Source of the DNA: Phycisphaerae bacterium
Lineage (GTDB): Bacteria; Planctomycetota; Phycisphaerae; Phycisphaerales; SM1A02
Direction: 5' to 3'
Assembly: GCA_002711415.1 (NCBI GenBank)
Contig: PARI01000025.1
Location: 1-64,000, forward strand
DNA: 64,000 nt
In this document: in pieces, positions 43,294-45,585 of the stretch
How the letters are laid out: each line of letters starts with the position of its first letter
Numbering within the stretch: position 1 is the stretch's first letter
Translations under genes and position numbers: made by a program
Notes under the pieces: model-generated
What the model saw: only the letters and a program-made list of their open reading frames with translations
What the model was told of the DNA's origin: nothing
Databases searched by the model: none

Positions 43294-43317
43294 GAACCGA
43301 ACCAAGGGGTGTGGCCC

Positions 43318-44349
43318 ATGAGCAGTCTTCTTGAACTCCCAATCCTTGATCGGCATGCGCGTCCATCCTGGGCGCTGGGGCCCCGCTCTATCAGCAACCT
43401 GCGCATGCTCAGGATCTCGGTGACCGATCGATGCAACCTGAAGTGCCACTACTGCATGCCCGAGGCGGGCATGGCATTCTCCGACAAGGATGAGCTGCTC
43501 GGGATCGACCAGATCTGCGAGATCGCCGGTGCCGCCCTCGATCTGGGTGTCCACTCGATCAAGCTGCCCGGAGGTGAGCCGACGGTCCGCTCGGACCTGG
43601 AGCAGATCATCACCAGCCTGGCGGCCATGGGAGTTCCTGACCTGTCATTGACCACCAATGGCATGCAGTTGCAGCGACGAGCCTCCGCCCTTCAGGATGC
43701 CGGGCTCGACAGGGTGACCGTGAGCATGGACAGCCTGGTGCCTGAACGCTTCAAGAGGCTCACCGGTGGTGGGCGACTGGACCTGGTCCGGACTGGACTG
43801 GACCGACTGGATCAACTCGGGTTCACCAACACCAAGATCAACGTCGTGATGGTCAGGGGGGTCAATGACGACGAGCTGATTCAACTGGCCCAACTCAGTC
43901 TCGATCGCGACTGGACCATCCGCTTCATCGAATACATGCCATTGGGACAGAGTCGCCTGCTGGAGATGGACGAGGATCCACTGGTTCCCACCGACTCGTT
44001 GATCCAGCGGCTCAGGGACCAGTTCGGGCGGCTGGAGGAGGTTCCCCGGCACATGGAGTCAGGCATGGGGCCAGCCGAGGTTCTCAAGATCCCTGGAGCG
44101 GTCGGGAGGATCGGGTTCATCCACGCGATGACCAGGCCATTCTGTGACACCTGCAACCGCCTCCGGGTGACCGCTCGCGGGGAACTCAGGAGCTGCCTCT
44201 TCGATGGTGGTGAGATCGACCTGCTGCCACTGCTTGGCTCAGGGGGTCCAGGGGCCATCCAGGAGGCCTTCAGGGCCTCCGTGGCGATGAAGCCCGAAGT
44301 GGCCCATGGCAGCAGGGGAGATCGGGCCATGAGCCAGTTGGGTGGCTGA
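43318..44349 (+). CDS. moaA: GTP 3',8-cyclase MoaA (molybdenum cofactor biosynthesis)
   Basis: A 343-residue radical SAM enzyme. It has the N-terminal cluster motif DRCNLKCHYC (CxxxCxxC), the GGEP motif, and the C-terminal cluster CDTCNRLRVTARGELRSC. The terminal Gly-Gly needed for catalysis in MoaA is present (SQLGG). It converts GTP to 3',8-cyclo-7,8-dihydro-GTP in the first step of Moco synthesis. The stretch before GGEP reads KLPGGEPTVR where LTGGEP is usual. ATG 43318 follows AAGGGG; a GTG at 43309 is possible. No other moa genes are adjacent. Confidence 0.93.
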   Translation: MSSLLELPILDRHARPSWALGPRSISNLRMLRISVTDRCNLKCHYCMPEAGMAFSDKDELLGIDQICEIAGAALDLGVHSIKLPGGEPTVRSDLEQIITSLAAMGVPDLSLTTNGMQLQRRASALQDAGLDRVTVSMDSLVPERFKRLTGGGRLDLVRTGLDRLDQLGFTNTKINVVMVRGVNDDELIQLAQLSLDRDWTIRFIEYMPLGQSRLLEMDEDPLVPTDSLIQRLRDQFGRLEEVPRHMESGMGPAEVLKIPGAVGRIGFIHAMTRPFCDTCNRLRVTARGELRSCLFDGGEIDLLPLLGSGGPGAIQEAFRASVAMKPEVAHGSRGDRAMSQLGG

Positions 44350-44470: not shown

Positions 44471-44498
44471 TTGACCCCGGCGGACATCCCCCGATACT
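44471..44498 (+). promoter_or_regulatory. Sigma70-type promoter of predicted small RNA
   Basis: TTGACC (44471-44476) and GATACT (44493-44498) with a 16-base spacer lie about 120 bases downstream of moaA. The predicted transcription start, about 44505, coincides with the base of the first stem of the small RNA. Confidence 0.6.
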
Positions 44499-44504
44499 GT
44501 ACGG

Positions 44505-44599
44505 AGAGGTGAAACATCCACTCGCCTCAAAGCGGTCCTTCGGGACTGCTTCTAGGCCGCCGTCTGGAAGTGTCGGAGCATTCGGACGGCGGTTTTTTT
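44505..44599 (+). ncRNA. Predicted small RNA of about 95 nt with three stem-loops
   Basis: Three adjacent hairpins follow the promoter. SL1 is a 7-bp stem (44506-44512 with 44522-44528). SL2 is a 9-bp stem with a UUCG tetraloop closed by C-G (44530-44538 with 44543-44551). SL3 is an 8-bp GC-rich stem (44557-44564 with 44585-44592) with a 20-base loop, followed by seven T residues (44593-44599). SL3 plus the T-run is a typical intrinsic terminator. No open reading frame is convincing, and the next gene is convergent, so this is not a 5' leader. It could instead be a long 3' tail of moaA, but the internal promoter argues for a separate transcript. No known RNA family was recognised. Confidence 0.6.
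44557..44599 (+). terminator. Intrinsic terminator (SL3 plus T-run)
   Basis: CCGCCGTC pairs with GACGGCGG, followed directly by TTTTTTT. This is the cleanest intrinsic terminator in the window. It would end the small RNA and any read-through from moaA before the convergent gene. Confidence 0.85.
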
Positions 44600-44633: not shown

Positions 44634-45476
44634 TTATTCCATCTTGAGCCAGGAGGTATCGATGGACCCCGCATCGGCACATCCAATCGCCATGGCGGTG
44701 TTGAGACAGACCTGCAGCGGCATCCCCGCTGTGACGCCCAGGACCAGGCTGACCAGGGCCTGGTGTCGATTCAGTTGCCCTTGGAAACTCGCCTGGATCG
44801 TCCCCTCGGCCGTCTGGAGCGTTGCCATGCCCCGGGCGGGTTCCATCAGCAGCAGCATCTGGAGTTCATGGGCGTTCAGGAAGCGGCCTGCCGCTTCGTT
44901 GACTGTCAGGTCACGCAGGACCGGCTCCAGCCATGCCAACTGGTCAATGGGCATGACACATCCATCAGCCAGCTTCAATGCCTGGAGGACCAGGCTTGAA
45001 TCAACCGCCTCCTGAACCAGGTCCGTGTTGTGATCAAGGATCCGGATCGCCCGCTTGGCAGAATCAAGCACGCGATCGATGGTCGACCTGCATTGGCCAT
45101 TGAATCTGGAGACTGAGTCGTAGACGACCACGTCCGCGGCGATGGCCATGTCCTCGAGGTCCGCATCCCACTGGAGGTTGCCAATGGCATTGTCGGTTCC
45201 GAGTCTTGGAGGCTCGTTGCTGAACGCGATCCGGGCGATCCGAGCGGTCGGCAGGTCCGAATCGACCTGGATCGCGGCGGTGTTGATATCAGCCTCGGCC
45301 AGCGTGTTCCTGATCTGCGAGCCAGCCTGGTCCAGGCCCACCCTGCTGGCACTGAAGGCGTGCTGTCCCATGGCCACTGCGGCCATCGGCACGTCGCAGG
45401 CGACACCACCGCATCCGACGGGAGCGGCTGGGTCCGAGTAGAGGCAACCGATCCCCATGATCTTCTGTGGCTGCAT
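44634..45476 (-). CDS. Degenerate PfkB-family (fructokinase-like) protein
   Basis: A roughly 280-residue protein whose N-terminal two thirds follows the PfkB/fructokinase pattern. It has GIGCLYSDPAAPVGCGGVACDVPMAAVAMG in place of the GGAPANVA region, SRVGLDQAGSQIRNTL, an IQVDSDLPTA stretch, and a mid-region resembling the DVNLR and KLNEEE blocks as LDHNTDL and VMPIDQL. The C-terminal DTxGAGD anion-hole and catalytic-base motif of real PfkB kinases is not visible, so kinase activity is unlikely. It may be a sugar-binding or regulatory paralogue. The start is uncertain (ATG 45476, ATG 45458 or GTG 45482). Confidence 0.6.
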   Translation of the reverse strand: MQPQKIMGIGCLYSDPAAPVGCGGVACDVPMAAVAMGQHAFSASRVGLDQAGSQIRNTLAEADINTAAIQVDSDLPTARIARIAFSNEPPRLGTDNAIGNLQWDADLEDMAIAADVVVYDSVSRFNGQCRSTIDRVLDSAKRAIRILDHNTDLVQEAVDSSLVLQALKLADGCVMPIDQLAWLEPVLRDLTVNEAAGRFLNAHELQMLLLMEPARGMATLQTAEGTIQASFQGQLNRHQALVSLVLGVTAGMPLQVCLNTAMAIGCADAGSIDTSWLKME

Positions 45477-45585
45477 TCGCACACTGTACCGCCTCGGCGG
45501 TGTCGCTCAAGCGGGGACGAGCCCTGTTGCTTCGAGCATGCATGGAATCGGGTACAATCCTCGTCACACAGAAGGGGAATCATCC

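Follow-up and report, generated by a model that had tools for sequence, protein, structure and literature searches.

Does the gap between a moaA-type gene and its convergent neighbour contain an RNA gene of its own and, if it does, with what might this RNA pair? The question concerns positions 44471-44599 of the stretch of DNA that was analysed (64,000 nucleotides, hereafter the window), located in contig 24 of a 2.8-Mb planctomycete genome. The gap is preceded by a radical SAM gene of the moaA type (43309-44349, + strand; Pfam Radical_SAM and Mob_synth_C) and followed, in convergent orientation, by a PfkB-family homologue (44634-45482, - strand; Pfam PfkB), which is kept in several relatives belonging to family f1. 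The PfkB match is weak (27.8 bits, with a cut-off of 25.8), and the gene is perhaps degenerate.

Promoter and structure of RNA-A

The original prediction had placed in this gap a TTGACC/GATACT promoter with a 16-base spacer, followed by three hairpins and seven T residues, and both claims held. The promoter (44471-44498, + strand) is of the sigma-70 type, matches the consensus at 9 of 12 positions and recurs 5' of the homologues; two promoter-like sites were counted within 2 kb, compared with 0.4 in shuffled sequences. The predicted small RNA, named here RNA-A (44505-44599, + strand), spans the sequence between the expected start point and the last T of the run (~95 nt). Its minimum free energy is -50.1 kcal/mol, compared with -30.5 kcal/mol for shuffled sequences (z = -5.7; 0 of 200 shuffles as good), and a repeat of the shuffle test gave z = -5.4.

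The fold, with hairpins at the positions first proposed, comprises (i) SL1, a 7-bp hairpin (44506-44528, + strand); (ii) SL2, a 9-bp hairpin with a UUCG loop (44530-44551, + strand); and (iii) SL3, an intrinsic terminator composed of a long GC stem and TTTTTTT (44554-44599, + strand; hairpin 44554-44594), which is supported by both the fold and covariation. SL3 had been described as an 8-bp stem, and in this respect the prediction failed, as the helix has at least 13 pairs. It is topped by a small apical loop, GUGUCGGAGC (44570-44579, + strand), the proposed pairing site. A simple terminator scan, restricted to short loops and uninterrupted stems, did not report SL3.

Conservation, distribution and genomic context of RNA-A

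A DNA search of 60 relatives gave matches in 20 other genomes, every one of them confined to SL3. The existence of homologues in relatives shows that the feature is not due to chance. When aligned, the homologues also share a TTGAC...TACTGT-like promoter, the basal pairs of SL2 (CGCGG/CCGUGG) at a conserved position, then CGC, and then SL3 with a constant loop. The covariance search foreseen in the original prediction revealed compensatory changes in SL2 and SL3. SL1, by contrast, folds in this genome but is lineage specific, with no counterpart in the homologue alignment, and is therefore not a conserved part of the family.

Across 58 homologues, 93.8% of the stem cells pair, and changes on both sides were found in 13 of 17 pairs, compared with 6.1 in shuffled alignments (0 of 500 shuffles reached the observed value). 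For helix 1 (SL2), 92.6% of the cells are paired and 3 of 4 pairs show changes on both sides; the respective values for helix 2 (SL3) are 97.6% and 9 of 11. When the 3' partners were slid by one base, pairing fell to about 40%. These figures lean towards structure, because the alignment of the 58 homologues was fitted to the model; the first, free alignment (21 sequences) contained double-sided changes in 6 of the 17 pairs. G-U cells in SL3 far outnumber A-C cells across the homologues (53 vs. 2), and the + strand is therefore the RNA strand. While the SL3 stem covaries, its terminator loop UCGGAGC stays unchanged and is common to 75 of 76 model matches.

A short coding gene followed by a terminator might be proposed instead, as in this genome a GTG follows a GGAG at the 5' end. 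However, closed reading frames inside the homologues are short (median 6.5 codons; 20 codons reached in just 5 of 82), and the indels of one or two bases, together with the double-sided pair changes, fit an RNA and not a protein. This explanation is very unlikely and was rejected; the earlier statement that no coding frame is convincing thus held.

Out of 251 genomes sampled from the order, 139, representing six families, contain a match to the covariance model, and a second model, applied with laxer filters, matched 30 of 39 relatives. RNA-A is usually present in a single copy per genome in both surveys, a few of whose weakest matches will be false. In a phylum-wide search with the model, true members were found only within the same order. 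The weak matches outside it (L110-L116, 27-31 bits) do not have the loop and resemble common GC-rich terminators, and one match inside the order (L071) is likewise false. When 84,980 named genomes were scanned with a pattern, 18 records were returned, of which 17 are labelled planctomycetes (several of them Phycisphaerales) and one an uncultured bacterium; no record was named from another phylum. Judging from these labels, the order is probably Phycisphaerales. Two side observations concern the distribution: (i) near-identical RNA-A loci occur on different contigs of one genome (L082 and L083 of G133), owing either to a genuine duplication or to an error of assembly, and (ii) genus g18 of family f1 (G017, G102, G115 and others), whose genomes of ~1.9 Mb are the smallest of the family, lacks RNA-A, as well as the second RNA described below, at the thresholds used.

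A promoter was identified upstream of 65 of 81 RNA-A homologues (16.3 expected from shuffles), and the predicted length of the RNA has a median of 87 nt and a range of 69-152 nt; some of the promoter calls at the length extremes will be wrong. The genomic context varies. A divergent NUDIX hydrolase gene lies upstream in 44 of 82 loci (families f1, f2, f5 and f6), and in the window its place is occupied by moaA. The downstream genes of the window (PfkB-like, PagL-like outer-membrane protein, sugar epimerase and undecaprenyl-phosphate translocase-like) match those of the f1 relatives. Families f2, f4 and f5 have a different downstream neighbour, a membrane protein (neighbour cluster 7) that by eye is CstA-like. 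As both upstream and downstream genes change among the families, the RNA-A gene shows greater constancy than the genes around it. Vertical inheritance of RNA-A within the order forms part of the best explanation.

The feature might also be a mere terminator of moaA or of a neighbouring gene, without any RNA gene. It is indeed located 3' of moaA, whose transcripts could well terminate at this site. Against this explanation, (i) in relatives the promoter is conserved and the gene upstream is usually the divergent NUDIX gene, and for these reasons the element is not a moaA terminator; (ii) SL2 is conserved 5' of the terminator; (iii) a constant loop is not kept by ordinary terminators; and (iv) no other site of the window is like RNA-A, the rest scoring at most 13.7 bits with the covariance model (RNA-A itself scores 70 bits, its sequence being in the training set). 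This rival is very unlikely and was rejected. Of the conditions under which the original prediction was to be abandoned, the one open to computation (relatives without conserved pairing or promoter, leaving only a moaA terminator) does not apply, since pairing and promoter are both kept and the upstream gene in relatives is usually a divergent NUDIX gene.

A conserved RNA gene at 44471-44599 is therefore highly probable, and we hold it to be close to certain, with no expression data at hand. On sequence evidence, the gene, its promoter, structure, conservation, strand and fixed exposed loop are shown, and those features of a free-standing small RNA that can be read from sequence are present: its own promoter, an intrinsic terminator, no conserved reading frame, and compensatory changes. 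The original proposal, a regulatory RNA of ~95 nt equipped with a promoter of its own, is thereby supported; the term "regulatory" remains an inference, without transcript data.

RNA-B and its complementarity to RNA-A

A second RNA came to light when the complement of the RNA-A loop, GCTCCGACAC, was sought in this genome and in three relatives. The motif occurs at 7 sites in this genome, compared with 8 for its reversed control; among the 7 is a site in a strong hairpin beside nuoH. This hairpin, named here RNA-B (G000:C10:72258-72307, equivalent to L221:1501-1550, + strand; relatives L219-L232 and L249-L268), has the terminator loop CUCCGAC and is usually located beside nuoH, in family f1. 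A search around nuoH revealed the same hairpin in nine genera, with a covarying stem (99.1% of cells paired) and a fixed loop. The RNA-B model gave 14 strong matches with the loop in 40 relatives, and matches in about 40 f1 genomes of 251. After matches without the loop had been dropped, 39 loci were kept; the constancy of the loop in these is partly a matter of construction, because the loop was a selection criterion. The nine first RNA-B hairpins were found through nuoH and not through the loop.

The nuoH gene is within reach at 35 of the 39 loci, and in the remaining four it is not within the fetched flank. Relative to nuoH, RNA-B is oriented convergently in certain genera and co-directionally in others, while the strand that carries the loop and the U-tract stays the same. 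The U-tract, where present (it is strong in 4 of the nine hairpins found first), occurs only on the strand whose loop reads CUCCGAC. A promoter-like sequence, CTTG-N18-21-TA[CG][AGT]NT, precedes 28 of 39 loci (0.24 expected), although the pattern was written after the same loci had been seen. The predicted length is about 73 nt (range roughly 50-105 nt), and none of the loci has an Rfam match. The U-tract, the G-U pairs, the promoter and the changing orientation place RNA-B on the other strand, carrying the complement; the possibility that the hairpin belongs to the nuoH mRNA and there repeats the RNA-A loop, as a protein site common to both, was ruled out, the RNA being on the opposite strand. 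Read by eye, a tandem change in genus g57 accounts for the 14 A-C cells of RNA-B; in that genus the U-tract nevertheless favours the RNA-B strand. Matches of model R3 in family f2 lack the loop, and no RNA-B was found near nuoH in families f2-f6. A lone candidate was noted where RNA-B is otherwise not found, a 16-bp terminator hairpin with the loop GCUCCGAC (L237:1501-1551; G041, family f6). RNA-B is thus shown, at the level of sequence, to be a second conserved RNA gene with a loop complementary to that of RNA-A; its transcription is inferred.

The CUCCGAC of RNA-B is complementary to GUCGGAG of RNA-A, and in this genome the match extends over 10 contiguous nucleotides, the RNA-B loop GCUCCGACAC (G000:C10:72275-72284) being the perfect complement of GUGUCGGAGC. 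In 25 genomes with both RNAs, the loops are complementary over 7-12 contiguous nucleotides, with duplex energies of -13 to -22 kcal/mol. Every genome with RNA-B to which an RNA-A model was also applied has RNA-A. Conversely, no true RNA-B was found in the genomes without RNA-A from the surveys of 39-40 genomes, nor in the listed f1 genomes without RNA-A from the larger surveys (251 genomes). No probability was attached to this co-occurrence, because the genomes are related and the filters differ. The two RNAs thus fulfil one requirement of a kissing-loop pair, in that they occur together and their exposed loops are complementary.

Loop co-variation adds no significant support. Against a tight pair, permutation of partners between genomes had no significant effect on the contiguous run (9.12 for cognate vs. 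9.17 for shuffled pairs, p = 0.63) or on the energy (p = 0.12), with the 7-nt core invariant; as this core is constant in both RNAs, it cannot co-vary. The loop flanks of RNA-A and RNA-B do not track each other, and a matched A/U swap (GAG/CUC) was seen only in genera g7 and g22. In the latter, both loops of one genome (L231 and L088 of G021) carry the same matched change as g7, GAGUCGGAG and CUCCGACUC; these are the only hints of co-variation.

Within f1, RNA-B went undetected in a considerable share of the genomes that carry RNA-A. In families f2-f6 the RNA-A loop reads AUCGGAGC, UUCGGAGC or GUCGGAGC (the complement of AUCGGAGC is GCUCCGAU, and that of UUCGGAGC is GCUCCGAA), and is as fixed as in f1. 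Since the loop is fixed there although no RNA-B was found apart from the lone f6 candidate, other or further partners must hold it constant. It could therefore be argued that the loop pairs mainly with mRNAs or other RNAs and that the RNA-B match is secondary or coincidental. The constancy of the loop in families where RNA-B was not found, as well as the lack of significant co-variation in the flanks, speaks for this explanation. Against it, the RNA-B loop is constant across the f1 homologues and carries the complement on a strand fixed by the U-tract and G-U pairs, and no RNA-B was encountered outside genomes that carry RNA-A. We consider this rival unlikely.

Hfq was detected in none of 61 relatives, although positive controls were found, and pairing of RNA-A consequently cannot rest on this protein; an Hfq-dependent small RNA is thereby excluded. 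CsrA, on the other hand, is encoded by 60 of the 61 relatives, and this genome has two copies. With Hfq missing and CsrA present, the main protein-based rival is that RNA-A binds a protein, foremost as a CsrA-type decoy with a constant GGA in a hairpin loop. Besides the distribution of the two proteins, this explanation is favoured by the constant single-stranded loop with GGA, kept even in families without a known RNA-B. CsrA sites favour an A two bases before GGA (A-N-GGA). This core is missing in RNA-A, which has a U at that position; moreover, constancy is not limited to GGA but is equally strict for the flanking U, C, G and C, the extra GGA triplets (2.7 per RNA vs. 1.4 in shuffles) lie off conserved loop positions, and the reverse-complement loop CUCCGAC of the second RNA would be left unexplained. 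The usual mark of a CsrA-binding RNA, A-N-GGA in what are mostly several loops, is not met by a single conserved GGA loop in which the triplet follows UC. In the absence of binding data, we regard the decoy explanation as improbable.

Proposed mechanism and comparison with known systems

The preferred reading is that RNA-A, an RNA of roughly 70-150 nt, would be made from a housekeeping-type promoter, end in its intrinsic terminator and act in trans, base pairing through the exposed terminator loop UCGGAGC. In f1, RNA-B would be the candidate partner, the complementary terminator loops of the two RNAs forming a kissing-loop complex. RNA-B, with its anti-Shine-Dalgarno-like CUCC loop, may repress mRNAs at their ribosome-binding sites, in the manner of the C-rich loops of LhrC and its relatives (PMC4132741), while RNA-A, with its Shine-Dalgarno-like GGAG loop, may serve as a decoy or sponge holding RNA-B; given the nature of the two loops, such a decoy circuit is the simplest one. 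That RNA-A is a trans-acting RNA pairing by its terminator loop, with RNA-B as a candidate kissing partner in f1, is in our judgement as likely to be borne out as not, as transcription, pairing in the cell and the direction of regulation are all inferred. A bolder reading, to which we give rather less credence and which we would not at present favour, is that the two RNAs kiss through their fixed terminator loops and form a conserved switch, in which the order-wide RNA-A would titrate RNA-B, or be titrated by it, and thereby set the translation of a group of mRNAs in bacteria without Hfq; here too, transcription and pairing are inferred. That RNA-A is retained across the order as the adjacent genes change points to a basic role in regulation, which is likewise an inference. 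The absence of Hfq makes the RNA-A/RNA-B pair a possible model for small RNA pairing without that chaperone, and the complementary loop of RNA-B puts a candidate partner for RNA-A at hand.

The suggestion that the RNA belongs to no known family, and may be an undescribed planctomycete RNA, held. Rfam 15 gave nothing at the gathering threshold in the window, and only two tRNAs in 20 homologous loci; the best sub-threshold match was PhotoRC-I (14.9 bits vs. 45). A search, within a limited collection of papers, for work on small RNAs of planctomycetes or Phycisphaera yielded no description of such RNAs. RNA-A very probably represents a new, order-wide family of a known kind of gene, the free-standing small RNA. 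6S RNA (RF00013) is also short and free-standing, but RNA-A lacks its long interrupted hairpin and is not matched by RF00013, and separate 6S RNAs are present in relatives, e.g., G045 (57 bits) and G041.

CsrB/CsrC, RsmY/Z and McaS are CsrA-sponge RNAs with GGA in hairpin loops. RNA-A resembles them in having GGA in a hairpin loop and CsrA in the cell's gene complement, and differs in having only one such conserved loop and no A-N-GGA core. Listeria LhrC and other small RNAs with UCCC loops (RsaE, RNAIII, SprD and FsrA) are, like RNA-A, small and free-standing. Their C-rich loops, including the terminator loop of LhrC, bind target RNA (PMC4132741), and the CUCC loop of RNA-B is of that kind. 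Unlike this group, RNA-A carries a loop of the opposite sense (GGAG), has only one conserved loop, occurs in a different phylum and has no Rfam match.

In CopA/CopT, RNAI/RNAII, FinP/traJ and small RNA sponges, two structured RNAs have complementary loops of ~7 nt or more. The hairpin loops of RNA-A and RNA-B are complementary to a similar extent (about 7 nt or more). Classical kissing pairs are, however, transcribed from opposite strands of one locus, whereas RNA-A and RNA-B, whose pairing is inferred, are encoded by separate chromosomal genes and have unlike stems.
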